NCBI GenBank assembly: GCA_021324415.1
Contig: JAJPJF010000417.1
Span: forward strand, 1-64,000
Direction of reading: 5' to 3'
Source: Nostocales cyanobacterium Centralia_MAG_434
GTDB lineage: Bacteria > Cyanobacteriota > Cyanobacteriia > Cyanobacteriales > Nostocaceae
Length of the DNA stretch: 64,000 nucleotides
Below are positions 3,136-43,110 of the stretch, one piece after another (within the stretch, counting starts at the first letter, position 1; every line of letters starts with the position of its first letter). The translations under genes and the position numbers were made by a program. The notes beneath the pieces were generated by a model. The model was not told the DNA's origin. It was given only the letters and a program-made list of their open reading frames with translations, and did no database searches.

Positions 3136-4178
3136 TTGTGAGCAATGAGATACTTGCTCAAAAAGTGTACTTGCATTTCAATGTTTTCAAAGCCTGCTTT
3201 CTCTAAACGCTCTACTAAGTTATCAGTTGTGTAATGCTTGTAGTAGGGTTCATGGTAAGTATCATCGAAAAATTCCATTGTCGGTTGCATTTCAGGAGAA
3301 TCGCTCATTTGAATAGAGTCACAGAGAATAAAAATTCCACCTGGTTTAGTCACCCGGAAACATTCTTCTATCACACGCTGGCGCACGGTTGCTGGTAATT
3401 CATGGAACAGGAAAACAGAAGTCACAGCATGGAAATAGTTATCTAAGTAAGGTAACTCTTCGGCATTAGCTTGCAGCAGTTGTGGCAATTCTCCCGGAAT
3501 TTGGGATAACAGTTCGTTCGCTTTCCGCAAGTAAGCAGGTGATAAATCTGTACCATAGAGTGATGCTTGAGGTAGAGCCGACCGAATCAACTTCAGAGTG
3601 CGACCAGTACCACAAGCTACATCCAGAATACGAATTTGCCGTGGGTGAACAGAAGTTGCGTGCAATGCCAAGACAAGAGGAGCAAGAATTCGCCTTCGCA
3701 TCACGTCTGCTGAGCCACCAAAGAGAAGTTCCACCTGTAAGTCATAGAGATTGGCGGATAAATCGCTTAAGTAGCCATCTGTCTGGTAGTGGAAATTCTG
3801 TACGTAGTAGCTAGGATAATCGAGAGTATCTATTTGAGTGGAAAACTCTTGATATTTCTTTTGATTAGCCCGCAGCCAGCGCTGAGGTAAATCCAGCCAT
3901 TCGGCTGGGTAGTAGCGGAAAAAATCTTCCCAAGGGTTATCAAATAGTAAACTTTTGGGATATATTCCCCGTTCAGCATCTTGCCAATCAACTTCTAGCA
4001 GATCATTCAATTTTTGCTCAAGTATGCGTATAACCTCGTTCGGGATGGGTTTGAACTGTCTGTGTACAGTGGAAATGATGTTCATTAAGCGTACGCTTAA
4101 CGTTTTGTGTGCCAGACTAAAGTAACTTTTACCCTGCTGCAAAGTCTGATAAGTCAATTTGGTTAACGTATCTGACAT
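3126..4178 (-). CDS. SAM-dependent class I methyltransferase
   Basis: A 350-residue protein. Residues about 175-290 form a Rossmann methyltransferase: motif I 'ILDVACGTGRTL', motif II acidic residue in 'ASLYGTDLSP', then 'LLQANAEELPYLDNYF' and the post-motif 'RVTKPGGIFILCDS'. This is UbiE/Methyltransf_11-like. The first 170 residues are helical, not recognised, and look conserved rather than random. The substrate cannot be told from sequence. The ATG start at 4178 is the only good choice. The gene is convergent with the thioesterase, and its last three codons fall inside a dispersed repeat. Confidence 0.8.
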   Translation of the reverse strand: MSDTLTKLTYQTLQQGKSYFSLAHKTLSVRLMNIISTVHRQFKPIPNEVIRILEQKLNDLLEVDWQDAERGIYPKSLLFDNPWEDFFRYYPAEWLDLPQRWLRANQKKYQEFSTQIDTLDYPSYYVQNFHYQTDGYLSDLSANLYDLQVELLFGGSADVMRRRILAPLVLALHATSVHPRQIRILDVACGTGRTLKLIRSALPQASLYGTDLSPAYLRKANELLSQIPGELPQLLQANAEELPYLDNYFHAVTSVFLFHELPATVRQRVIEECFRVTKPGGIFILCDSIQMSDSPEMQPTMEFFDDTYHEPYYKHYTTDNLVERLEKAGFENIEMQVHFLSKYLIAHKPI

Positions 4179-4360
4179 AGGAATAGTCGATTTTTTGTTA
4201 CTTAATATTTATCTAAATTAATCAATTTTAACTAAAATTCCTAATTCTTAGGATAGATGTCTATATGCAAGCATGGATGCTGTTAGAAACATTATAATAG
4301 ATTTATGTAATGAATGTTTCGATTGGTAATATATTAACTTTTATTAAAAGCAACAAAACA

Positions 4361-4374
4361 GTATCACTTGTTAC
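4361..4374 (+). promoter_or_regulatory. NtcA box upstream of gifA
   Basis: A perfect GTA-N8-TAC (GTAtcacttgtTAC). A -10-like TAGATT follows at 4387-4392, only 12 nt after the box. That spacing puts NtcA over the -35 region and fits repression. This agrees with the known repression of gif genes by NtcA under nitrogen limitation. Confidence 0.75.
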
Positions 4375-4451
4375 AGATTGATGTGATAGATTAGTTAAAG
4401 GAAAAAACAAACTCATCAAAATATCACGACAAAAACTGGGAGGGTCTTGGT

Positions 4452-4652
4452 ATGTCTATGGAAGAAAGAGCTCGGGCCTTAATGGTGCGTCACTATCAAT
4501 TGATTAAGAATCGTCAACAATCTTTGCTAGAACGCACGAGTGAAGAACTAGGTCTTCCTGGTGAAATCTCTCACTACTGGAATCCTATTCAAGGGAAAAT
4601 AGACCCTATTGCACGGCAAACTTATGACCGCAGCAATGCCACTATGAGCTAA
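4452..4652 (+). CDS. gifA: Glutamine synthetase inactivating factor IF7
   Basis: A 66-residue, Arg-rich protein with the IF7 hallmarks 'RALMVRH', 'IKNRQQSLLERT', 'EELGLP', 'YWNPIQGKI' and the C-terminal 'YDRSNATMS'. IF7 binds GlnA when nitrogen is plentiful and blocks it without covalent change; the Arg residues make the contact. It sits just downstream of glnA in convergent orientation, the arrangement I recall from Anabaena PCC 7120. The ATG at 4452 follows a GGGAGG ribosome site, and an ATG at 4458 is an alternative start. The perfect NtcA box upstream fits nitrogen-dependent repression. Confidence 0.92.
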   Translation: MSMEERARALMVRHYQLIKNRQQSLLERTSEELGLPGEISHYWNPIQGKIDPIARQTYDRSNATMS

Positions 4653-4696
4653 GCAGTTATAAATTATGAAGCCATTTCAAAAAATCAAATAAAAAA

Positions 4697-4715
4697 GCCA
4701 CCCTAAGTGGGTGGC
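4697..4715. terminator. Shared terminator between gifA and glnA
   Basis: A hairpin with a 7-bp stem GCCACCC/GGGTGGC and a 5-nt loop. An A-run lies to the left and T-rich sequence (ATATTTTAT) to the right, so it can end transcription from both convergent genes. Confidence 0.85.
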
Positions 4716-4738
4716 ATATTTTATGCTAAACAGAGCAG

Positions 4739-6154
4739 TTAAGCATCATAATAGAGAGCAAACTCGTAGGGATGGGGGCGCAAGCGCAAGGGGTTAACTT
4801 CAGTATCCAGCTTGTAGGAAATCCACGTTTCTATGAAGTCTTCAGTAAATACGCCTGATTTCGTCAAGAAAGCGTGATCTTTCTCTAGCGCCTCCAATGC
4901 TAAATCCAGAGAACCTGGCGTTGAAGGAACTTTTGCCAGTTCTTCTGGAGAGAGTTCATAGATGTTTTTATCTAAAGGCTCACCTGGATGAATTTTGTTG
5001 TTAATACCATCCAGACCAGCGCATAGCATAGCGGCAAAAGCAAGATAAGGGTTACAGGTAGCGTCAGGGCAACGGAACTCTAAGCGCTTGGCTTTAGGGT
5101 TGCTGCCAGATAGAGGAATACGGATAGAAGCAGAACGGTTACCTTGAGAATAAGCTAGGTTAACTGGTGCTTCATAACCGGGTACTAGACGCTTGTAAGA
5201 GTTGGTGCTGGGGTTAGTAAGCGCCAACAGTGCTGAAGCGTGTTTAAGAATACCACCAATGTAATACAGCGCTGTTTCACTCAAGCCAGCATATTTATCG
5301 CCAGCAAACAGTGGTTGACCATCTTTCCAAATCGATTGGTGGGTGTGCATACCAGAACCGTTGTCTTGAAATACTGGCTTAGGCATGAAGGTAACAGTTC
5401 TGCCGTATTTATTAGCAACGTTCTTAATGACGTATTTATAAGTCATTAGCCAGTCAGCAGCCTCAATCAGCTTACCAAACCGGAAGCCAAGTTCGCACTG
5501 ACCACCTGTAGCAACTTCGTGATGGTGCTTTTCAATTGGTACCCCACACTCTGCCATGACAAGCAGCATTTCTGTCCGGATATCTTGTAGAGTGTCGGTT
5601 GGGGCAACTGGGAAGTAACCTTCTTTGTAGCGAGGTTTGTAACCCAGATTAGGACCTTCTTGTCTACCAGAATTCCAGCGACCTTCTACTGAGTCTACAT
5701 AGTAGTAGCCTGAGTGCTGGTTCTGGTCGAAGCGAACATCATCAAAGATAAAGAATTCAGCTTCAGGACCAAAAAAAGCTGTATCACCAATACCAGTAGA
5801 AACTAGGTAGTCTATTGCTTTTTGAGCAATGACACGAGGACAACGGTTATAAGGTTCGCCAGTCCGAGGTTCTTTGATACTGCAGATCAAACTGAGTGTC
5901 GGCTCTTTCATGAATGGGTCAATCCACGCTGTGTTTGGATCGAGAACCATTGACATGTCTGATTCGTTGATAGCTTTCCAACCCCGGATACTAGAACCGT
6001 CAAAAGGGACGCCATCACTGAAGGAGCTCTCATCAATTTGGTCTTTGTGCACCGTTAGGTGCTGCCAAGTTCCTGGCATATCGATGAATTTCAGATCGAT
6101 CATCTGAATGTTTTTGTCTTGAATCAGCTTCAAGATTTCTTGTGGGGTTGTCAT
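4739..6154 (-). CDS. glnA: Glutamine synthetase type I
   Basis: A 471-residue GSI that makes glutamine from glutamate, ammonium and ATP; it is the entry point of the GS-GOGAT cycle. Seen motifs: the N-terminal beta-grasp '[15 protein letters not shown]', 'DGSSIRGW' (Asp50 loop), the active-site region '[15 protein letters not shown]', '[12 protein letters not shown]' and the adenylylation-type loop near 'NIYELSPEE'. The frame runs open to 6196, but the ATG at 6154 starts MTTPQEILK and has an AAGGAG ribosome site 6 nt upstream. Regulation is visible: an NtcA box at 6280-6293 with a well-spaced -10, and gifA next door encoding its inhibitor. Confidence 0.97.
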
Positions 6155-6250
6155 TGTTACTCCTTGTCTACCAGATTTTCTAAAGTAGAACCACAATGCT
6201 AAAGCATGCTGACCCTGCTTGATTAAACCAAATTTTGAGATACCTGAAAT

Positions 6251-6293
6251 ATAGTAAAGATTTGAAATTCAGGTATTTTGTAGCTTTTGTTAC
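6251..6293 (-). promoter_or_regulatory. NtcA-activated glnA promoter
   Basis: On the minus strand a perfect GTA-N8-TAC (6293 to 6280) is followed after 23 nt by a -10 TACTAT (6256-6251). This is the classic class II NtcA-dependent architecture, about 95 nt upstream of the glnA start. Confidence 0.85.
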
Positions 6294-6520
6294 AGATATG
6301 CTAGTTTACAGGTTCTATTAACCTTTCCTTAACCATCGGCACAAAACTACTAATGTTCATCTCACAGGGGTCAACTTTGGCATAGAATCCTTAAATAGCG
6401 AATGTTATTTGTTTTTGTGCTGTAGCTTCTTTTTTGAACGGTGGCACAAAAAGTGACACGCTCATAAAAGCGCTCAAATAAATATCAAACCATAGATAGA
6501 ATTGATTGGGAGAAAAAGGT

Positions 6521-7030
6521 ATGCGGGATGCAGTAACAAGCTTAATTAAGAATTATGACGTTGCAGGTCGGTATTTTGACCGGAATGCAATTGACAGTCT
6601 TAAATCTTATTTTGAAAGTGGCACAGCACGAGTACAAGCAGCAGCGATTATTAATTCAAATGCAGCAGCAATTGTCAAGGCAGCTGGTTCTAGGCTATTT
6701 GATGAGCAACCAGAGCTAATCCGCCCCAGTGGCAATGCTTACACGACTCGTCGTTATGCGGCTTGTCTTCGAGATCTGGACTACTACTTGCGCTATGCTA
6801 CCTATGCACTTGTTGCTGGCAATATGGATGTGCTCAATGAACGAGTGTTGCAAGGACTGAGAGAAACCTACAATTCCTTGGGTGTACCCATTGGTCCAAC
6901 AGTTCGTGGTATTCAAATTATTAAGGAGATTGTGAAGGAGCAAGTAGCAGGGTCAGGTGCTGCTGATACTAGCTTTGTGGATGAGCCATTTGATTATCTC
7001 ACTCGGGAATTGAGCGAAAAAGATATCTAA
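6521..7030 (+). CDS. apcF: Allophycocyanin beta-18 subunit (phycobilisome core)
   Basis: A 169-residue phycobiliprotein. The MRDAVTSLIKNYD start, the chromophore Cys in 'YAACLRDLDYYLRYATYA' and 'TYNSLGVPIGPTVRGIQIIKE' mark the ApcF subunit rather than ApcB. ApcF is a minor beta-type subunit of the core cylinder that partners the terminal emitter ApcE and passes energy to the photosystems. The frame can be extended 15 nt upstream, but the ATG at 6521 is the family start. It is divergent from glnA; I recall apcF-glnA-gifA as a conserved order in Nostocales. Confidence 0.93.
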   Translation: MRDAVTSLIKNYDVAGRYFDRNAIDSLKSYFESGTARVQAAAIINSNAAAIVKAAGSRLFDEQPELIRPSGNAYTTRRYAACLRDLDYYLRYATYALVAGNMDVLNERVLQGLRETYNSLGVPIGPTVRGIQIIKEIVKEQVAGSGAADTSFVDEPFDYLTRELSEKDI

Positions 7031-7040
7031 ACTCAGTGAA

Positions 7041-7085
7041 CAGTTATCAGTGAATAGTTATCAGCTAACTGTTCACTGATAACTG
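7041..7085. terminator. Hairpin after apcF built from CAGTTATCAGTGAA repeats
   Basis: A perfect 14-bp inverted repeat (7041-7054 with 7072-7085) and a 17-nt loop, 11 bp after the apcF stop. The ACTGATAACTG units also repeat directly to 7091, resembling STRR elements. There is no T-run, so termination is likely but unproven. Confidence 0.55.
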
Positions 7086-7121
7086 ATAACTGAATCAGTG
7101 TAACCGGATGTAAAGTAAAGA

Positions 7122-7952
7122 TTGGTTAAGCAAAGGTTAGATGTTTTATTAGTAGAGTTGAATTTGTGTTCGTCCCGTCAGCAGGCGCAGCGGTTGATTC
7201 AAGCGGGAGAGGTTACTGTTGATGGGACAGTGGTTGACAAGCCAGGGACTGAGATAGACGTTTCTACACAAATTCAAGTTAAGGAGCGATCGCGTTTTGT
7301 GTCCAGAGGGGGCGAGAAGTTAGCAAAGGCGATCGATGTTTTTGGTATTTCTGTAGAAGGGCGTGTTTGTTTAGATGGTGGCATCTCTACAGGCGGTTTT
7401 ACCGATTGTCTGCTACAGGCTGGGGCAAAGCAAGTTTATGGTGTTGACGTTGGTTATGGGCAAGTTGACTGGGGTCTGAGAAATGATCCTAGGGTGATTT
7501 TGCGCGAACGTACAAATTTACGCTATCTGACGCCAGATGGGTTGTATGGTTCACCTATCTCTGTAGGGGAAGGATATGCTGATTTGGCTGTGGTGGATGT
7601 GTCGTTTATTTCATTAACCAAGATTTTGCCTGCTTTGTGGCAGCTTCTGCAATCTCCTCGTGAGGTGGTTTTGTTGGTAAAACCACAGTTTGAAGTGGGA
7701 AGAAACCGTGTGGGAAAAAAAGGGGTTGTGCGTGACTCTCATGACCAAGCCGATGCTATTTTCTCGGTGTTACAAGCAGGTGGAGAATTAGGTTGGCATT
7801 ACAAAGGTTTAACTTGGTCGCCTGTCACTGGTCCGGCTGGCAATATAGAATACTTATTGTGGCTGGGAATGGACAGTGAAATCCCTTCACCAGATTTAAC
7901 GGCAATTCAGCAGGTGACTCGATTGGCTGCCAGTGAACTTCGCGAAAAATAA
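7122..7952 (+). CDS. tlyA: TlyA-family S4/FtsJ rRNA 2'-O-methyltransferase
   Basis: A 276-residue protein with an N-terminal S4 RNA-binding domain ('RLDVLLVELNLCSSRQQAQ', residues about 4-60) and an RrmJ/FtsJ-like methyltransferase ('GGISTGGFTDCLLQAG', 'DLAVVDVSFISL', 'VLLVKPQFE', 'GPAGNIEYL'). Family members methylate 16S and 23S rRNA riboses at the subunit interface and were once named hemolysin A. The TTG at 7122 is the only usable start, because an in-frame stop (TAA, 7116-7118) lies just upstream. It sits on the plus strand after the apcF hairpin. Confidence 0.88.
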   Translation: MVKQRLDVLLVELNLCSSRQQAQRLIQAGEVTVDGTVVDKPGTEIDVSTQIQVKERSRFVSRGGEKLAKAIDVFGISVEGRVCLDGGISTGGFTDCLLQAGAKQVYGVDVGYGQVDWGLRNDPRVILRERTNLRYLTPDGLYGSPISVGEGYADLAVVDVSFISLTKILPALWQLLQSPREVVLLVKPQFEVGRNRVGKKGVVRDSHDQADAIFSVLQAGGELGWHYKGLTWSPVTGPAGNIEYLLWLGMDSEIPSPDLTAIQQVTRLAASELREK

Positions 7953-7961
7953 GTATTTATA

Positions 7962-9380
7962 CTACAAAAATCCCTCTAATTCTTGCCGTAAACGATACAT
8001 AATTGTGTTTGGTTCCACCTCAGACAGAATTTCTTGAATAACTGTACTTGCCCCTAATTGTCCCCAAGTACAGCCATTTTCTAAATAAATCTGTGCGGCT
8101 CTACCTACTGCGTAGGCACCGTAACCTGCAATACCAGCTTGTGCGATCGCTCCTCCAGCATAGGCAGTGATATTCGTGGGATTTTCACCAGCAGCAATTG
8201 CAGTTGCACTCTTACCCAAACCCAAAAGAAAACTACTGCTTAATTCTCCCAAGAGTAGACCACCGGAACTAAATAAAATCGTTTTTAGCATCTTTCCTGC
8301 TTCGTAACCAGTCATTGGCAAGCCATATAAGCGTGATAGAGAACGAATTAAAGCAAGATCTGCTAAAGTTCCCCCTAAGACATCTAAGAAAGCGATAGGA
8401 TTTAACCCTACTACCAAGGCTTTGTATTTGGTAAATTGCCAGATGAGGTTTTCTGCTTGTTGTTGTCGCAAATCGATGGTTTTTTGTGCGATCGCCTCTT
8501 CGGCTTCTCGTGCTTGGATGAGTGCGTTTAAAGCCAAAAGCGATCGTCCTTCCCGATTCAAAATTTTTAAGATTGTGTGTTTGAGCTCGCTGATTTGCGG
8601 TGGTGATGCCTCCCATTCATATGTAACACGACCATCAGGCCATTCAACTCGCACCTCTATTGGTGCTGGTTCTGCCGCTACCATAACAATTTCATCAGGT
8701 TGTAAAGGAGCAGCAGATGTTCTTGCGTTTGTAAAACCCAAATTTAAATCATCCGTGACCCATCTGTTACCACCCAATTGTTGTAAATTTTTATAAATGG
8801 CTTCTTTATCTGTGTCTGGGTACAGGTCGACTTTATTAAAAACGAGAATGAGTGGTTTTTGTGCCTGTCTTAATTCACACAGTGCTTGATATTCTGTCTG
8901 AATAATATCACCAGACACGACAAACAAGATTAAATCAGCTTGACGCGCTACCTCCCGCGCCATTTGCGCTCGTGCTTCCCCTGCAATTTCATCTAATCCT
9001 GGAGTATCAATTAACTCAACTTGTACTTTGCTACTAGGATTCCAATGGATTGAACGAGGGTACTTAGTCACACCATGAAGAGGACCAGTTTGAAGTATTT
9101 TTTGTCCGACTAAAGCATTCAAGACCGCTGACTTGCCACGACTGACTAACCCAAAGGCAGCAATGCGAATCACGTTATAGTCTAGCTTGTTAAGGGTAGA
9201 GGTCAAAACCTCTAATTCAGGTTTTACCAAACCTGCTAATTGTGAATTGGCTGGCGACTGTCCAGGTTTACGAAGATCTCCATACCAAGACAGTGCTTGT
9301 CTGAGGCTAGCACGAGCACGATTTAAGTGGGTTTCTTGTAGATTGCGCACACTTTTGAGATTCTCTTGGGTTAATACCAA
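7962..9380 (-). CDS. Membrane-associated Era-like GTPase with C-terminal hydrophobic domain
   Basis: A 472-residue protein. The GTPase motifs are complete: G1 'GLVSRGKS' (77-84), G3 'DTPG' (125-128), G4 'NKVD' (182-185). The second half has a long helix followed by hydrophobic, Gly/Ala-rich segments ('LFSSGGLLLGELSSSFLLGLGKS', 'AGGAIAQAGIAGYGAYAVG'), resembling the DUF697/YcjF-type membrane module common in cyanobacterial GTPases. The role is unknown; membrane remodelling or stress are guesses. The start is TTG at 9380 with no clear ribosome site. It is convergent with tlyA with only 9 bp between them. Confidence 0.8.
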   Translation of the reverse strand: MVLTQENLKSVRNLQETHLNRARASLRQALSWYGDLRKPGQSPANSQLAGLVKPELEVLTSTLNKLDYNVIRIAAFGLVSRGKSAVLNALVGQKILQTGPLHGVTKYPRSIHWNPSSKVQVELIDTPGLDEIAGEARAQMAREVARQADLILFVVSGDIIQTEYQALCELRQAQKPLILVFNKVDLYPDTDKEAIYKNLQQLGGNRWVTDDLNLGFTNARTSAAPLQPDEIVMVAAEPAPIEVRVEWPDGRVTYEWEASPPQISELKHTILKILNREGRSLLALNALIQAREAEEAIAQKTIDLRQQQAENLIWQFTKYKALVVGLNPIAFLDVLGGTLADLALIRSLSRLYGLPMTGYEAGKMLKTILFSSGGLLLGELSSSFLLGLGKSATAIAAGENPTNITAYAGGAIAQAGIAGYGAYAVGRAAQIYLENGCTWGQLGASTVIQEILSEVEPNTIMYRLRQELEGFL

Positions 9381-35120: not shown

Positions 35121-35894
35121 TTATTTAGAGTTATCAGAGAAAATTTTCTCGATATCAGAGATTTGTACAGCACCCGAGAAATTTTCACTGTTAATGATAA
35201 AGAAGGGTGTACCAGAAAGCCTTAATTTTTCGGCTAGTGCAATATCTTTTTGGATTGCTGTATCAGCAAGACGTCTATCGCGTTCAAATTTTTGAAGATC
35301 CAAATTCAATTTTTTGGCAATATCTATATATAACGCTTCACTCAACTTTTGTTGCTGACTAAATAATGCATCATGATATTCCCAGAATTTTCCTTGCTGA
35401 AATGCAGCCCAAGCAGCTTTGGCAGCAGGTAAAGCTTCAGAGTGAATTGATGTTAGGGGAAAATTTTTATAAACCAGTTTGATGTCATCGTGATGTTTTG
35501 AGATCAGATCTTTTAGCGTTTTATGAGCCTCAGCACAGTAAGGACATTGAAAATCTGAAAATTCTACGAGTACAGTTTTTGCGTTGGGTGATCCAGTCGT
35601 GGGCGATTCGCCAATGACCTTGAGGGGCTCCGTTTTTAAATCCTGTAAGAATGCCTGTCGTGTTTGTTGCAGCTGTTGTTGTTGTTGCTGCTGATATGCT
35701 TGTAAAGACTCCAGAATAACTTCTGGGTGTTGGCGAATGATTTGTAAGACTTGCCGTTCCAATTGTGGATTCGCAGAACTAGCAGCTTGTGCAGGAAGTG
35801 AATAGCCCAAAACCAGACAAAGTAATAATCCTAAAGCTATGCAGTTCTTTAGCCATTGCCGTAGTTGCCCAAAACAGAAGGAGAATGTACGCAT
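35121..35894 (-). CDS. Secreted DsbA-family thiol oxidoreductase
   Basis: 257 residues with a signal peptide (about 1-37, 'CIALGLLLCLVLGYSLPAQA') and a Gln-rich helix (66-80). The thioredoxin/DsbA domain has the active site Cys117-Pro-Tyr-Cys120 in 'SDFQCPYCAEAH' and the cis-Pro loop 'LSGTPFFII'. It probably forms or shuffles disulfides in the periplasm, like the BdbD/DsbA group. A VKOR partner, usual in cyanobacteria, is not adjacent. The start is ATG at 35894. Confidence 0.88.
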   Translation of the reverse strand: MRTFSFCFGQLRQWLKNCIALGLLLCLVLGYSLPAQAASSANPQLERQVLQIIRQHPEVILESLQAYQQQQQQQLQQTRQAFLQDLKTEPLKVIGESPTTGSPNAKTVLVEFSDFQCPYCAEAHKTLKDLISKHHDDIKLVYKNFPLTSIHSEALPAAKAAWAAFQQGKFWEYHDALFSQQQKLSEALYIDIAKKLNLDLQKFERDRRLADTAIQKDIALAEKLRLSGTPFFIINSENFSGAVQISDIEKIFSDNSK

Positions 35895-35963: not shown

Positions 35964-38786
35964 TCAAAATTGCATCTGATCTCGTTTCATCCCGAGTATT
36001 TTCTCAATCAACGCTTGATTTTCTTGACTTTCTGCTTGTTTGAGATATTCAATTGCAATCTGTGCTGCAGCAGGCTGCTCTTTAGCAATAGCAACTAGTG
36101 ATTCCACAGTCTGATAAAGTTGTATTTTTTCTGACTGCCTAGTTGTAGCAATTGGCAGAATCACAGCAGCAAGCACTAAACCAATCATCGGAGGGACAGT
36201 AGGAATCCACCAATTTTGTAAAAAGGCAAGATATGCAATTCCTAGGAGCCCTCCCCCTGTTATCGTAATGCTTGCAATGATCGCTTTAGATGACATAAAC
36301 TGCCAACTTAATACTGCTCCCACTGTAGACCACAACAAAATCCAGAGAAACTCAACTGGCTTAGACCACACGTGCATCATTCCTCTTCCCTCTAAGGCTG
36401 CACTCAAAATTTGACTGATGATATTGGCGTGAATCATCACCCCAGCCATTTGTTTTGAGTGACCCTTGTAGTTCATATAAGGCGTTGAAAATAAATCGTT
36501 GATACTGGAAGCAGTGGTTCCCATTAAAACGACGCGTCCTGTAAAAGCAGTTTCTTCTTGCCCAACAGGGTTTTTTGAAGAGTCGATATCATTCCCTGAT
36601 TGTTGTGGTATTTTGTGAGCTAATAAATTTGTCAGTGAAAAAGTCTGGAACTGTTGCTGGGTACCGTGAAAGTTGAGTAAAACTTCATAGCCCAGTCTAT
36701 CAGCACGGACATAACCCCCGTCATTTCCCCCAAAGGGAACAAGCACTGCTTTCCCTAGCTGTAATTGATAGGGATGATCGCTGAGAGATTTGGGAGTGAT
36801 CCCAAAGTCTTGTAAATAACGTAATGCCAATTGCAAGCCGAAACTGAAACCTAATTTATTGTCGGGTAGTTTAACTGCAAGCAAGGCGCGACGTAGCTTA
36901 CCATCTCCATCTATAACCTGATCAGCAAAACCCACCTGATCTAATTGAGCTAAAACTGGCGCAGGGGCAATTTTTCTCCCCACCACCTTCTCGATACCAA
37001 TGAGATTTGGAGTTGTTTTATACAGTTCTACTAATTCCTGCGAACCTGGTATAATAGGCACATCTCGATACAAGTCTAGCCCAAGTGCTCTGGGTTTATA
37101 GCTCTTTAATATCCGGATTGCTTGTGCTACCACTTGATCCGACAGAGGAGACTGACCAATTTGCTTAAGATCTGATTCGTCTATCGTCACAATAGCAATA
37201 CGAGGATCAATTGGTTCTGGAGGACGTGTTTGAAAAAAGCAATCTAGCAGCGTCAACTCCATTCCCTGTAACAAACCAATAAAACGCAAAAGAATCACGA
37301 AACCGGCAACTGCTCCAGCAATGCTCGCGATACAAGTCTTTGCTAGACGTATTTGCTGGGCATTTTGTTTCGCAATTTTCCGTGCATTTACCAGTATTTG
37401 ATTTGCCTGCTTAGTAGCTTGGATAGTAAACTGAGCTTTTTCTTGTTCAATTTGTCTTGCGCGCTTTTCCGCTGCTAAATCACTTTCAATTTCTCGTTTT
37501 GCCAGTTCTTGACTTGCAGCGAGAAAGTGATAGTCTAGGCTACTTAGCTTTTTATTTTCTGACCAAGCCAGTGCTTCTTGTAATTCTATCCCCACTAACA
37601 ATTGAGACTCGTCTTGCTTACCAGATGCATTCCAATCCTTAAACTTTTTTGCATAGGGACGTAGATTTTGCAGATGGAGAGCAACCCATTCTAAGTTAAA
37701 GACTGCTTTATAAATTTGGTTTTTTACCTTTAGAAGTCCCTTTTCATTGACAACTAAACCAGATAAAAGCAATTCCATATGTTCTCTACTATCATTCGTT
37801 GGCACCTCCTCCCCTGCGAGAACTTGCTGATAAATACCTAGTAAAGATCCTGCCGTTTGTTCATCACATAGGAGGCGATCGCGAATGGTTCGTAAATGTT
37901 GCGGTTCATCCTGCGGTTCCCAGTTGTGAATGATACGTGAGTTAACAAGATTTTCCACCCAAAATGCTTCTGTACCAGGCGGAATAGTCAACGTTCCACT
38001 CACTGTGTCATGACTCGAACTGACAACCAATTGACACAGTTTCTGGGTGAGAAAAGGTTGTCCTCCAGTCCAAGTTAAGATTTCTTCGAGAACAACCTCA
38101 GCCTTACCTGCTCGAACTGCTAGCCCTCTCGCTAAAGGCTGAACTTGATTTAAGTTAAACCCGTGCAGTTCGATAGCCTTCCCAATATTAAACAGGGTGC
38201 GATTTTTATCTCGAATTAAATCACATGGGGTTGCTACACCAAAGATAGCAAATGTAATCCGATGATAATCTGGATTCACTGCCCGTTGGTTGTAGCAGAA
38301 TCTTATCAATCCTAAAAAGTCATCTACTGAGAAATCTAGGTTAAGAATACTGTCTATTTCATCTATAAAAATACATAGTTTTTCGTGAGGAAATTCAACT
38401 AGCAAGACTTGCGAAATAAAGTGACTAACTTTCTGGATTAAAGAGAAATCTTCTTGTTCTTGCCACCAGGTTTTTAGGTTAACTTTTTCTAATAGTTTAA
38501 AACCCAACCATAGGTCTGCGACAACTCCTTTATACCACTGAGACGGAGTAATATTTTCACTACCAATATTGGTGAGATCGACAGTAGTACACTGGAATCC
38601 TTCAAGTTGTAGGCGATGCTTTGTTCTGACCAAGAGGGAGGATTTTCCCATTTGCCGACAGTTGAGTACATAGCAAAACTCACCTCGCTTAAGGGCTTCA
38701 TAAAGTTCCACATCTGCCTGTCGTTCTACGTAACTAGGAGCATCGCTGCTAAGTGTACCACCAACTTGGTAACGATAATTACTCAT
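35964..38786 (-). CDS. AAA-like ATPase fused to CHASE2 sensor and membrane helices
   Basis: 940 residues. The N-terminal AAA-like (STAND-type) domain has Walker A '[10 protein letters not shown]' (42-51) and intact Walker B '[12 protein letters not shown]' (137-148). A winged-helix-like region and coiled coil (about 430-480) follow. Next come TM1 (about 485-505), an extracytoplasmic CHASE2 domain ('[27 protein letters not shown]', '[11 protein letters not shown]', '[18 protein letters not shown]'), three more helices and a short cytosolic tail. It looks like an NTPase switch driven by an outside signal. The upstream ATPase gene ends 14 bp before it, so the two form an operon. Confidence 0.88.
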
Positions 38787-38800
38787 ATGTCATGTTCAAT

Positions 38801-40183
38801 TTATCCAACAGGCACTCCAAGCTGTTGATGAAAATAAAGACGATACAGCTCACAGCTAGGTGTTGCCCGATTGCCCACCAGCTCGATCAGTCCCATACTT
38901 TCAAGCTTGTAAGCGGTGATTGCGTCTAATGGGACGCTCTCTTTTGCCGTCACAATCTGTTGCATCGCTGATGCCAATTGTGGCTCAGTTTTAAGTATGC
39001 TTAAGTGTTCACGTAGATGGTTACTATAAATTCCAGATGGTGTTGGTGCTGCTTGTAATAGCTGTTGAAGTTCTGTTTCCTCTCGACACAGATGATAAAG
39101 TGCAAGATTTACCAAATAAGGATGCCCTCCTACCATGGCGTGTAAAGATGCAAGACATTGCGCCCCAAACTCACTGATTGCCCAATTTAGTCCATAGCGG
39201 ATTGCCAAATCCCGCACCTGCATCATTGTAAACGGTGGCAGCGCAATTACCAACCCAACATTAAAAGGTGATTGGTTGAGCTTCAATTGGATATAAATTT
39301 CTGTGGTGTGAACCACAACCAATCGCAGATTTTTCCAAGTTTGATTTTGCTTTGTCTGTTCATGCCAAAATCTTAGCATTGGCATGAAGTCTTGGGCAAT
39401 TTGCGGATGCTCTAAAATCCGATTGATTTCATTTAAAGCCAAGATAACAGGTCTATCGATTTGCTCTAGCAGATACGCTTCAAAATAGATTTTGCAGCTG
39501 ACCTTACTTCCCATATCTGCATCCCAGTAATCATCCAGCCTTGGAGCTAGGTGCAACTGCCTACTGGTATTGGCACACAACCAACGCAAAAATCTATCGA
39601 GCGATGCAAAAACAAATTCATCAGCTTCGCGGAAGTCTAAATAGACGATGTGATAACCCTGTTCTTTAGCATGAGCAATCAACCGATTGAATAGCGAACT
39701 TTTCCCCATCTTCCTTGGAGCCTTGATCCGCACAAAGCATCCAACTTGTTTAATTTCAGTACAAACAAATTCTTCAAGCGGTGGGCGATTGATATAAAAA
39801 GGAGAATCTAATGGTAAGGGATCGCCAGGAAAGACTATCTCGCTTTCTGCAATTAAGTCTGAAGAACTAATTTCTGCTTGACGATATTGTCTCTGTCCTT
39901 GTTGGAGTTCATTTGCCTCCAACATTGCGTTGTATTGGGCGCAATGTTTTAAGACTAAATGCAGATTTTTTTTTGTTACCCTCCTTCCCAAAGCTCCTGA
40001 AAGATCTTGCCACAATTGAGACCCAACTTCCTTAATATAGTCACTACCATAACCCGTTCCCTGTGCCATCTCACTATAAGTTTGCCCCATCCAGGATTGA
40101 CGAACTACTAATCGCTCAATGGAACCAAATCGCTTATGTGGTAGGATTTGCTCTACCGTTTCCAAAACCTCATCAGGAGTCAT
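38801..40183 (-). CDS. HTH (VMAP-type) AAA-like ATPase
   Basis: 460 residues. The first about 80 residues ('LVVRQSWMGQTYSEMAQGTGYGSDYIK') match the HTH found at the N-terminus of VWA-MoxR-associated proteins. An AAA-like domain follows with Walker A 'APRKMGKSSL' (155-164). Walker B reads 'VILALNEINRIL', with Asn251 replacing the Mg-binding Asp while Glu252 remains. The C-terminal part is winged-helix-like. It is probably a DNA- or partner-binding regulator paired with the AAA-CHASE2 protein 14 bp downstream. The start is ATG at 40183. Confidence 0.85.
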   Translation of the reverse strand: MTPDEVLETVEQILPHKRFGSIERLVVRQSWMGQTYSEMAQGTGYGSDYIKEVGSQLWQDLSGALGRRVTKKNLHLVLKHCAQYNAMLEANELQQGQRQYRQAEISSSDLIAESEIVFPGDPLPLDSPFYINRPPLEEFVCTEIKQVGCFVRIKAPRKMGKSSLFNRLIAHAKEQGYHIVYLDFREADEFVFASLDRFLRWLCANTSRQLHLAPRLDDYWDADMGSKVSCKIYFEAYLLEQIDRPVILALNEINRILEHPQIAQDFMPMLRFWHEQTKQNQTWKNLRLVVVHTTEIYIQLKLNQSPFNVGLVIALPPFTMMQVRDLAIRYGLNWAISEFGAQCLASLHAMVGGHPYLVNLALYHLCREETELQQLLQAAPTPSGIYSNHLREHLSILKTEPQLASAMQQIVTAKESVPLDAITAYKLESMGLIELVGNRATPSCELYRLYFHQQLGVPVG

Positions 40184-40446: not shown

Positions 40447-41232
40447 TTGCTGACTTGGTTTGAGGTGATTGGTTACACTGTCTTGTTAGAGGTAGACGTT
40501 CCCTCGAGAGTTAGGGCACATAGCAACACTGATTCAGGACAGTTTATTCTCAAACATCGTCTGTGTAGTGCATTAAAGCGGATTAACCCCAAGATTACAT
40601 CTGATATAACCAATACCGTCATTTCTCAAGTTACTTTCCAGGAAAATTCAAACCTCTTGGAAAATAACCTGCATTTCCATAAACTATTAACTCAAGGTAT
40701 TGATGTTGAATATCAGGTCAATGACAAAATAATTCAAGACAAAGTATGGTTGATTGATGCAGATAATCTGCTTTTAAATGACTGGCTGGTCATTCATCCA
40801 TTTGTCCTTGTTGAAGACGAAGACTCTTACCATCTTGATGTTGTTGTCTTTATCAACGGACTACCTTTAGCCGTCATTGTATGGATTCATCCAAAAGATA
40901 ATACTGCTAGGCTTCTGGAAGCTTATCATCGACTACAAACCTATAAACAAAAAATTCCAACGCTGTTTTCCTACAATGCATTCCTCATCATTGCTTGTGG
41001 AACAAGGGCAGAAGTTGGGACATTAACTTCTAACTGGAAAGAGTTCTTGCCATGGCGCACGATTGATGGTGAAGATTTTCCACTCCCAGGGGAAACTGAG
41101 CTAGATATATTAATTCAAGGTCTTTTTGATAAACGGCGTTTTTTAGAACTGGTTAAATATTTCATATTCTTTGAGAACACGGAAGTTGGTATCGACAAAA
41201 AGTTGCTCCGCTATCCTTTTTGTACAATTTAG
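40447..41232 (+). pseudogene. Decayed HsdR (type I restriction subunit R) N-terminal fragment
   Basis: 261 codons align to the N-terminal nuclease part of HsdR: 'LLTQGIDVEYQVNDKIIQDKVWLID', 'NDWLVIHPF', 'LDVVVFINGLPLAVI', 'SYNAFLIIACGTRAEVGTLTSNW', 'PWRTIDGE' and 'KYFIFFE'. HsdR is normally about 1000 residues, and the helicase domains are missing. The nuclease ExK motif is destroyed (Val145-Trp-Ile where Glu-Leu-Lys is expected). No ATG exists: the frame is open about 90 bp further upstream and only a TTG serves. No hsdM or hsdS is present. It is almost surely a relic. Confidence 0.85.
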
Positions 41233-41323: not shown

Positions 41324-41917
41324 ATGCATTTGACTCGCCGGATTGCACTTATATCGTTATCGCTATCGATATTGGGACTAGCTCAGCCTACTCTGGCTGA
41401 TGGAGACTCTGGCTATAGGCAACACTATGCAAATTGTTCTGGTGGCACCTCACAGAGGTTTCGCTTGAGTGGTGAGGTTGAAGAGAGCAAGACGTTCACT
41501 TTATCAGACCTTGAATCTTTGCCAGCCTCGAAAGTGGCTGTGACATTTCAGTCAGGGCAAGGTCAAGAAAACCATACCTATATTGGAGTTCCTTTGTGGC
41601 AGCTGATCCAGGCAGCCGGAGGACTCAAACCGAATCCGACAGTCAAAAACAACTTTCTTCGGCAGTATGTTGTGATTGAAGGCACCGACTGCTATGAGGC
41701 AGTCATAGCAGTTGGAGAAATTGAACCAACCTTTGAAGGTAAACAGGTACTCGTTGCATATGCAGAAGAAGACTCATCTGAAGCGCAAACACTGTTAACA
41801 TCTCAGGGATTTGCCCGTCTTGTTGTACCTGGCGATCAAAAAGGTGGACGTTACGTTAGCAATATCAAACGTATTCGAGTGCTATCCATTCCAGATTCCA
41901 GTGTCAAACAGTACTAA
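41324..41917 (+). CDS. Exported molybdopterin-binding-fold (sulfite-oxidase-like) protein
   Basis: 197 residues with a signal peptide (1-25, 'RIALISLSLSILGLAQPTLAD'). The body looks like the oxidoreductase molybdopterin-binding fold: 'SGEVEESKTFTLSDLESLPASKV', 'YIGVPLWQLIQAAGGL', 'EGTDCYEAVIAVGEIEP' and 'LVVPGDQKGGRYVSNIKRIRV'. The domain is shorter than in sulfite oxidase, and the expected pterin-ligand Cys is not certain. It may bind a cofactor or only keep the fold. Its stop overlaps the convergent regulator's stop by 4 bp. Mo-related neighbours support the call. Confidence 0.72.
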   Translation: MHLTRRIALISLSLSILGLAQPTLADGDSGYRQHYANCSGGTSQRFRLSGEVEESKTFTLSDLESLPASKVAVTFQSGQGQENHTYIGVPLWQLIQAAGGLKPNPTVKNNFLRQYVVIEGTDCYEAVIAVGEIEPTFEGKQVLVAYAEEDSSEAQTLLTSQGFARLVVPGDQKGGRYVSNIKRIRVLSIPDSSVKQY

Positions 41918-43110
41918 ACAGTAGCCACCACATCTCCAGTACTGCTAGTATCATAGCCACCGAGAACTTCTAACTGTGAGTGAACTCGCCGATGTCCCAA
42001 GGTACTAAGCAACTGTTGTACAGGTGATTCCTCCAGGTATTCCTTAAGAATCACGAGGTCGTATCTTGAGCGATGAAGAGGGATAAATTCTAAGCCAAAA
42101 GCGGTGGCTACAGATGCTGTACTAATGCCTGCATGAGCAACACCTGATACTATAGCTTGAGCAACATCTTGGTGACTTGTCACAACATGTTCATATCCTT
42201 TGACATTGTGAAATGGTATTTGCTCTTGTTGAAGTTTTTGTTCTAGAAGCATGCGGCTACCGGAGCCAACTTCACGATTGACAATAGTGACTCCAGCTTC
42301 TAACAAGTCAGTCATGGTTCTAATTCCTCGTGGATTGCCAGACTGGATCAATAGTCCTTCTTCCCAAACTCCAAGTGTAATCAAAACTGCAGCCTTCCCA
42401 GCCAAGACTTCACGAACGAAGGGTATATTGTGCTCTCCAGTTGCGGGATCATATAAGTGCATCCCAGCAATGTGAACTTCTCCGCGACATAGGCTCTGCA
42501 GTGCAGCAATGCTGTTGGCAAAGTGAAACTGGACTCGTAATTGAGGATGCCAGCGTTCAGTTGCTCTTGCCCATAGTGAAAGCACAGGTGAACAACCAGC
42601 AATGACAACTGTGTTGACAAGTTTGTCAATATCCTCTAACAGCCGAACTCGGACTTTAGCTGTCACTAGTTGGCTCTTGTCTTGAAAGTTGGGCAGTTTC
42701 TCTTTGGAAAGACCACCAAGCTCAGACTGTCTGACTACTGTAACTCCCTCACCATCAGCCAAGATCATCTCTTGGCGAAAAGCATCCTTCCCGATTAAGG
42801 GATAAGCAATCCAATTTCCCCCTACCCTTGCCAGGCTCACTCGCAGTTGCTGACCGTAAGGAACAGATTTGGCAAGCACTGCTTCTATCTCAGGTAAATC
42901 TTGCTCAAACCAGAATAGATCCTCAACTTGACAACCCAATGCCTTTGCTAAACGAAGTGTAATAGCAACTGAAGGCGCATATTGCTCCGACTCTACACCA
43001 CTAATAGTCTGACGAGTCACACCAGCCAAGTTAGCCAAATCTTGCTGGCTCAAACCTAGACGAGTTCTAATTGACTTCAAGTTGTTGCGAAGATGACTAT
43101 CCTGCTTCAT
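41914..43110 (-). CDS. HTH regulator with molybdate-binding-protein-like domain (COG1910 type)
   Basis: 398 residues. The N-terminal XRE-type HTH is 'LRNNLKSIRTRLGLSQQDLANLAGVTRQTISGVE' (about 6-40). The C-terminal half is a periplasmic-binding-protein-like domain ('VVIAGCSPVLSLWA', 'GEVHIAGMHLYDPATGEHN', 'VTIVNREVGSGSRMLLEQ', 'GVAHAGISTASVATAFGL'). This architecture is typical of cytosolic molybdate/tungstate-responsive regulators. With mop immediately upstream it probably controls molybdenum uptake or use. The start is ATG at 43110. Confidence 0.85.
   Translation of the reverse strand: MKQDSHLRNNLKSIRTRLGLSQQDLANLAGVTRQTISGVESEQYAPSVAITLRLAKALGCQVEDLFWFEQDLPEIEAVLAKSVPYGQQLRVSLARVGGNWIAYPLIGKDAFRQEMILADGEGVTVVRQSELGGLSKEKLPNFQDKSQLVTAKVRVRLLEDIDKLVNTVVIAGCSPVLSLWARATERWHPQLRVQFHFANSIAALQSLCRGEVHIAGMHLYDPATGEHNIPFVREVLAGKAAVLITLGVWEEGLLIQSGNPRGIRTMTDLLEAGVTIVNREVGSGSRMLLEQKLQQEQIPFHNVKGYEHVVTSHQDVAQAIVSGVAHAGISTASVATAFGLEFIPLHRSRYDLVILKEYLEESPVQQLLSTLGHRRVHSQLEVLGGYDTSSTGDVVATV

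Follow-up and report, generated by a model that had tools for sequence, protein, structure and literature searches.

Organization of the locus

The subject of this analysis is a pair of adjacent genes, called A and B below, in the genome of Nostocales cyanobacterium Centralia_MAG_434. The window, i.e. the whole stretch of DNA that was analyzed, covers 64,000 nucleotides (contig JAJPJF010000417.1, positions 1 to 64,000). In the list of open reading frames (ORF) of the window, A lies upstream of B on the minus strand, which both genes share (Table 1). A prediction made from the sequence alone had described two related ATPases 14 bp apart, the first with a putative VMAP-type helix-turn-helix (HTH) and an Asn in place of the Walker B Asp, the second with intact ATPase motifs fused to a CHASE2 sensor. 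Apart from the VMAP-type label of the HTH, which stays putative, this description was borne out: both ORFs lie exactly where they had been placed, both proteins match PF14516 (AAA_35) by Pfam, and the Walker B letters are LALNEI in A and FIDEID in B. The CHASE2 domain of B is placed between membrane helices (Pfam and hydropathy), and no Pfam domain exceeds its cut-off after the last of these helices. In the structure model of A the N-terminal HTH consists of three helices (aa 21-31, 36-43 and 47-65), modeled with high confidence and followed by a long helix (aa 74-113); hmmscan of aa 1-114 returned a single sub-threshold match, to an unrelated family.

Table 1. Coordinates of genes A and B and of their parts in the window
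Feature	Position	Strand	Description	Basis
Gene A	38801..40183	-	460 aa; N-terminal HTH and AAA_35 ATPase	ORF, PF14516, structure model
A, aa 1-100	39884..40183	-	HTH region and beginning of long helix	Model; domain found on other proteins
A, aa 119-453	38825..39829	-	AAA_35 ATPase domain	PF14516 (E=1.4e-144), fold comparison
A, aa 155-163	39695..39721	-	Walker A, APRKMGKSS	Alignment of 73 A
A, Walker B	39425..39448	-	Altered Walker B (VILALNEI); Asn replaces Asp at aa 251	Alignment
Gap	38787..38800	.	14 nt from A stop to B start	ORF coordinates
Gene B	35964..38786	-	940 aa; AAA_35-like ATPase, membrane helix, CHASE2, further membrane helices	ORF, Pfam, hydropathy
B, aa 10-363	37698..38759	-	AAA_35-like ATPase domain	PF14516 (E=2.5e-31), fold comparison
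B, aa 42-50	38637..38663	-	Walker A	Alignment of 119 B
B, aa 138-145	38352..38375	-	Walker B, CIFIDEID	Alignment of 119 B
B, aa 485-503	37278..37334	-	First membrane helix	Hydropathy
B, aa 494-824	36315..37307	-	CHASE2 sensor domain	PF05226 (E=6.5e-64)
B, aa 835-853 and 861-879	36150..36284	-	C-terminal membrane helices	Hydropathy

Association of A and B in cyanobacterial genomes

The association of the two genes was analyzed in ten cyanobacterial genomes picked for their few contigs (1 to 30). A and B were split by Pfam score; 89 of 111 matches were used, the 22 dropped ones being all below 35 bits and including all 8 of one genome (G012), and one of the A retained is a 79.9-bit fragment. Of the 42 B, 26 are preceded by a same-strand A at a domain-to-domain distance of up to 1500 nt, against 0.035 expected under uniform placement. 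An A downstream of B within 6 kb was seen in two cases only (at 3.8 and 4.8 kb), three further B have an A beside them on the opposite strand, and two genomes (G013 and G019) contain A and no B. Our own profiles detected 47 A ORFs and 44 B ORFs in the same genomes; two of these B are genes counted again where stretches overlap. Out of at least 556 relatives of B, the best 80 make up a second set, which is biased towards window B; after removal of 9 loci with an N-terminally fused B and of 4 edge loci, an A is present upstream within 250 nt in 31 of the 67 usable loci and within 1.2 kb in 37. The genome of the window itself contains a second A-B pair, on contig C42.

The two genes also diverge in parallel. 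A and B distances are correlated over 43 adjacent pairs (r 0.85), and still so when these are thinned to 31 pairs (Mantel r 0.71, p 5e-5). As a shared species history could yield such a correlation across genomes, the test was repeated inside single genomes, where history cannot: 23 of the 26 pairs were used, then the 20 pairs from genomes with three or more, which gave r 0.83 (p 5e-5). Read from sequence distances, this parallel divergence shows co-inheritance or joint duplication, and it is compatible with a physical partnership of A and B, short of proof. Chance adjacency, the objection attached to the original prediction, is excluded by the counts and by co-divergence for the A-B family in general; linkage is weaker for the specific combination of an HTH-bearing A with a CHASE2-bearing B.

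Proteins related to window B, in its ATPase or its CHASE2 part, were found in 178 of 195 genomes of the order at E 1e-60. In the phylum, 40 of the 117 genomes surveyed have A-type proteins, and every one of these 40 belongs to the class (57 unmatched genomes of this survey are not itemized). Six of the eight plasmid stretches viewed carry A-B pairs.

Active sites and membrane helices

Conservation of the ATPase motifs was examined in an alignment of 73 A and 119 B proteins. All 119 B have RQ and GKSS in Walker A, as well as both the Asp and the Glu of the Walker B DE. In A the GK of Walker A is kept in 72 of 73 proteins, with one gap; the position of the Walker B Asp is occupied by Asn in 36 proteins, Asp in 31 and another residue in 6, and the following Glu is kept in 62, window A reading Asn-Glu. 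Since the majority of the aligned A have lost the Asp, the odd residue of the window copy, correctly noticed in the original prediction, is a trait of the A family. A GxP motif past the ATPase core, as expected of STAND/MNS-type NTPases, has its G and P in every one of the 73 A and 119 B. From these motifs B looks catalytic, and A tends towards an altered partner.

Hydropathy was computed in two sets of proteins. Of the B proteins, 64 of 68 in one set and 36 of 40 in the other (where up to two genes are counted twice) have a hydrophobic helix past the ATPase; among A, 4 of 49 and 1 of 39 have any such helix. B is thus predicted to be mostly membrane-anchored and A to be soluble.

Fold and family

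The model of A has a mean pLDDT of 91.7 and shows an ATPase plus winged-helix fold by VIA-align. The best matches of its ATPase unit are two archaeal ATPases, 2qen (Z 20.7, 309 residues) and 2fna, i.e. SSO1545 (Z 20.4, 304 residues), the A domain being folded like SSO1545/PABY2304; plant NLRs (18.3), CED-4 (17.8) and then ORC proteins come next, and an entry on maltose-system regulation (8bob) is found at Z 14.3. Identity in these alignments is about 8-14%. Foldseek also puts 2fna and 2qen on top for A. With VIA-align the same two structures are the best matches of B (2qen, Z 19.4; 2fna, Z 18.2). The HTH of window A was in turn found on 11 non-A proteins of three genomes, all of which are NB-ARC, NACHT or nSTAND proteins by Pfam; one of them (L219) has NACHT below the cut-off and a NACHT-associated domain well over its own. 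On the fold matches of the models and the HTH shared with these proteins, we place A, and probably B too, with the STAND NTPases. A sequence search of the PDB with the B profile gave no match, and with the A profile 16 weak ones (E 0.014-0.87), of which 15 are presumably HTH-domain regulators.

We take SSO1545 to be a member of the MNS clade; if so, AAA_35 is, or lies close to, the MNS family. The ATPase family is probably a known one, that of the MNS-clade STAND NTPases. The name "MNS clade (Npun2340/2341 family)" is given in PMC8195603 after Leipe et al. 2004.

Modules carried by A and B

The domains fused to the two ATPases vary widely between loci. At their N-terminus, A proteins carry TIR, trypsin-TIR, CHAT, CHAT-TIR, patatin or kinase modules, or a plain HTH; their C-terminal modules are GGDEF or class III cyclase, with a kinase in one unpaired case. 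B proteins carry WD40, TPR, CHASE2, kinase, histidine kinase, trypsin, amidase or GUN4, and some short B end soon past a single membrane helix. Kinase modules were seen at three loci (L098, L034, L095); at L034, A and its B are not same-strand neighbors. PADLOC effector models match the CHAT, TIR, trypsin and patatin domains of A, mostly weakly. In the ten genomes, 13 of the 26 paired A have a CHAT domain by phmmer and a 14th (L168) by Pfam; the HxxGHG and NAC motifs are kept in 14 of 15 CHAT copies on A. The window-type HTH is present on 1 of 26 paired A in the ten genomes versus 15 of 31 in the 80-locus set, so that an HTH output is not rare among the nearer relatives of the window copy. It is also found on 11 of the 21 unpaired A of the ten genomes, three of them with GGDEF. 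A second type of HTH (query from L073) occurs on 4 of 26 paired A, and sub-threshold HTH matches were obtained at L021 (HTH_26, E 4e-4) and L206 (HTH_30, E 0.008).

Two loci (L146 and L147) have two tandem genes for HTH-A-GGDEF proteins directly ahead of a CHASE2-bearing B. L100 shares its B with L146, and the B of L148 is nearly the same as that of L147, so these count as two independent cases, not four. CHASE2 is here juxtaposed with an output domain of A, which supports a direction from a sensor on B to an output on A. The GGDEF signature of one A of L100 reads PEEF, and this copy may be inactive.

Several single loci deserve mention. The pair of L158, at 3637-5991 (-) and 6158-8107 (-), has a patatin on A and EAD8 plus amidase on B; with its N-terminal EAD8 (27.3 bits, cut-off 27) it is, at the level of domain matches, a tie to described effector-associated domains (EADs). 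A GUN4-bearing B is found at L168, 3058-5568 (-), where the paired A is the CHAT protein cited above. EAD8 and GUN4 are both named in PMC7159879 and PMC8195603, papers on conflict systems. At L076, 4915-7095 (+), receiver and PAS domains precede the B ATPase (Pfam), an arrangement that would suit a sensor side; the B of L074, L081, L092, L096 and L101 were judged alike by similarity to this protein. Such N-terminally fused B are present in 9 of the 80 loci, 7 of these without an A seen upstream on the same strand.

A search for a conserved third partner or effector, proposed together with the original prediction, came back empty: clustering of 727 neighboring proteins gave no family tied to A-B pairs, and the output is instead fused to A and varies between loci. 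The largest neighbor cluster (44 loci, 15 with a pair) was rejected because one example sequence pointed to a response-regulator-like family with promiscuous linkage, and a 12-locus cluster looks like broken pieces of WD40.

The window copy and the CHASE2-bearing B

The nearest relatives of window A are proteins in the genomes of two relatives (72% and 68%) and in four Nostoc loci (68% over the ATPase). In all six cases the partner is a short B of 507-533 aa without CHASE2. Window B was placed on a quick tree without bootstrap, in which identical rows are the same CHASE2 gene in two collections: it falls in a clade of 17 rows, 16 with CHASE2 (SH-aLRT 99), whose other members are mostly without an adjacent A. 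On this tree CHASE2 must have been gained or lost at least five times. The window copy is therefore unusual in its combination of lineages, that of A being otherwise found with short B and that of B being mostly A-free. The simplest reading of these relationships is that it may have arisen by exchange of a partner or module, which would have brought an HTH-A lineage beside a CHASE2-B. The proposal that CHASE2 is the sensor of the pair must be restricted: the domain is indeed present on window B, but it is one among many B modules, with the repeated gain or loss counted above.

Among 26 loci with a CHASE2-B, some of whose stretches stop at contig edges, four have an A close by on the same strand (within about 200 nt), one has it at 517 nt, one at 1.7 kb with another ORF in between, and three have a divergent A. 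Since most CHASE2-B have no adjacent A, and many are linked to DUF928 or CHAT-TPR genes, the exact pairing of HTH-A with CHASE2-B is a minority arrangement.

Clustering of neighbors, with domains checked on examples, detected DUF928-family proteins in 16 loci (L014, L022-L024, L027, L031, L042, L122, L132, L134-L136, L142, L144, L154, L155), 13 of them with a CHASE2-B. DUF928 is usually the next gene downstream of CHASE2-B, with CHAT-TPR or TPS-secretion genes often beyond, and is present within the stretch in 9 of the 26 loci. CHAT-TPR neighbors were found in 8 loci, 7 with a CHASE2-B, and TPS proteins in 7 loci, all with a CHASE2-B. These families were considered as partners of the A-B pair and rejected, as they are associated with CHASE2-B and not with the pair.

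Comparison with known systems

The ATPase plus winged-helix fold of A is that of CED-4/Apaf-1 and plant NLRs (Z 16-18), and TIR and caspase-like effectors occur on A. In A-B, unlike in these proteins, one gene would carry the sensor and the other the effector, and B is predicted to be membrane-anchored. In plant sensor-helper NLR pairs one partner has an altered site, as in A-B. Window B resembles CHASE2 receptors by its membrane helix, its CHASE2 domain and its C-terminal membrane helices. The usual CHASE2 receptors have a C-terminal output. Window B is built the other way round, with the ATPase at its N-terminus and, past the last helix, no domain recognized by Pfam.

The MNS-clade STAND NTPases (Npun2340/2341 family; SSO1545) are like A and B in best folds and in fusions to effectors and repeats. 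Section 7 of PMC8195603 describes for this clade a central NTPase with FGS domains and EADs, and that section contains no description of a two-gene asymmetric pair. The MoxR-vWA ternary conflict systems (VMAP, iSTAND) are presented in the relevant part of PMC7159879 as modular, paralogous and present in cyanobacteria, and the repertoire given there overlaps that of A-B (TIR, trypsin, cyclases, GUN4, EADs). Unlike these systems, A-B has two STAND-like ATPases, and neither MoxR nor vWA was found among the nine proteins scanned with Pfam around the window pair (29.8-43.1 kb). In the open-licence literature searched we found no description of an asymmetric, co-diverging A-B dyad, and AAA_35 had its only relevant mention as a passing entry. 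The ATPase superfamily, CHASE2 and the modules are already known.

Proposed function

We propose, with moderate confidence, that A and B are the two genes of an NLR-like (STAND-type) signaling switch, and that the window copy has a regulatory output. The proposal draws on the linkage of the genes in the order A then B, their parallel divergence, the asymmetry of the active sites, the hydrophobic helix of B, the swapping of modules and the predicted folds. B would be a membrane-tethered, catalytically competent ATPase with its C-terminal module as sensor. In the window, CHASE2 would bind a small molecule outside the cell; the signal would cross the membrane helix and alter the nucleotide state of the B ATPase, which would in turn control the assembly or the separation of an A-B complex. 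A would be the soluble partner, which keeps its P-loop, tends to lose the Walker B Asp and carries the output. We infer that its HTH, once freed or clustered, binds DNA or a partner protein and so changes gene expression. The outside-signal relay of the original prediction survives in part: the two related ATPases would belong to one unit in which B holds the sensor and A an output resembling a regulator, and a role of this switch in conflict or stress is plausible; the exact pairing that it started from is the minority arrangement described above.

Several observations weigh against this proposal. No A is present within 2 kb in 17 of the 26 CHASE2-B loci (9 of 26 have one), subject to the contig edges already mentioned, and in the 80-locus set 9 of 10 CHASE2-B are without an A within 250 nt; as most of them have no adjacent A, CHASE2-B may work alone. 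Enzymes are carried by B as well (trypsin, kinase, histidine kinase, amidase), so that sensor and effector roles are not cleanly divided, and the Walker B Asp is retained by 31 of the 73 A. Block duplication without contact could also give the parallel divergence. Finally, Foldseek ranks ORC (ORC2) and RuvB first for B, 2qen and 2fna being absent from the 50 matches listed, and the model of B, with a mean pLDDT of 68, is poor beyond the ATPase.

Among the alternatives, a conflict or programmed-death dyad fares best, although we judge it unlikely for the window pair. A B module would recognize phage or damage and an A effector would kill or arrest the cell, the window HTH recruiting or regulating a separate effector. 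Other A do carry CHAT (with the motif conservation given above), TIR, trypsin and patatin, an effector repertoire strongly reminiscent of conflict and cell-death systems; the PADLOC models match such domains, mostly weakly, EAD8 and GUN4 are found on B, and pairs are present on most of the plasmid stretches viewed. In the window pair, however, Pfam recognizes no enzymatic effector, PADLOC finds nothing on B and a single match on A (mad8, 16 bits, E 0.0015), and an outward-facing CHASE2 is better suited to a small-molecule signal than to intracellular phage sensing. For want of effector enzymes, and with this one weak PADLOC match, the regulatory reading comes first and the conflict reading second for the window copy. 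A conflict role is plausible for the A-B family, and our guess is that for CHAT- and TIR-bearing pairs the order is reversed.

The possibility raised above, that CHASE2-B is an independent receptor, here of a surface or secretion module (DUF928, CHAT-TPR, TPS hemagglutinin), its position after A being a secondary rearrangement without functional meaning, seems to us unlikely. The neighbors of CHASE2-B, the clade of window B and the short B of the nearest A relatives all speak for it. Against it, phmmer finds no DUF928, CHAT-TPR or TPS gene in the window, the 14-nt spacing is like that of other pairs, and the combination of HTH-A with CHASE2-B recurs in Planktothrix (L014) and, on the same strand or divergent, at L143, L145-L149 and L156. 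A reading of A as an ordinary ATP-dependent transcription factor of the MalT kind, titrated by B as a mere membrane anchor, is improbable: the several HTH-like N-termini of A, the short B and the 8bob match would fit, but the invariant ATPase motifs of B go beyond the needs of an anchor, and the window HTH, found on NB-ARC, NACHT and nSTAND proteins in all 11 non-A cases, would do equally well as an adaptor.

A broader version of the proposed switch is offered tentatively. A and B would be a "split NLR" of cyanobacteria, in which a membrane sensor B with an invariant site licenses an effector A with a decaying site, sensors and killing or signaling outputs being swapped freely between pairs; the window copy would be wired from outside to DNA. 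If the dyad reading is true, many "AAA-like domain" annotations would belong to one modular signaling, perhaps self-killing, system, which would be a bacterial parallel to the paired plant NLRs and would pose a simple biochemical question, that of a catalytic B controlling an altered A.

Neighboring genes in the window

Downstream of B, at 69 nt and on the same strand, is a gene for a DsbA-like thioredoxin (35121-35894, -); phmmer gave no match to it near the 26 other CHASE2-B loci. On the other side, beside gene A, the 261-aa product of an ORF at 40447-41232 (+) is an HsdR N-terminal domain standing alone (PF04313, E 2.2e-28); the ORF lacks the other parts of a type I restriction enzyme. Further on, Pfam identifies an XRE-type HTH fused to a PBP-like domain at 41914-43110 (-) and, in the adjoining gene at 41324-41917 (+), a small protein with an oxidoreductase molybdopterin-binding domain.

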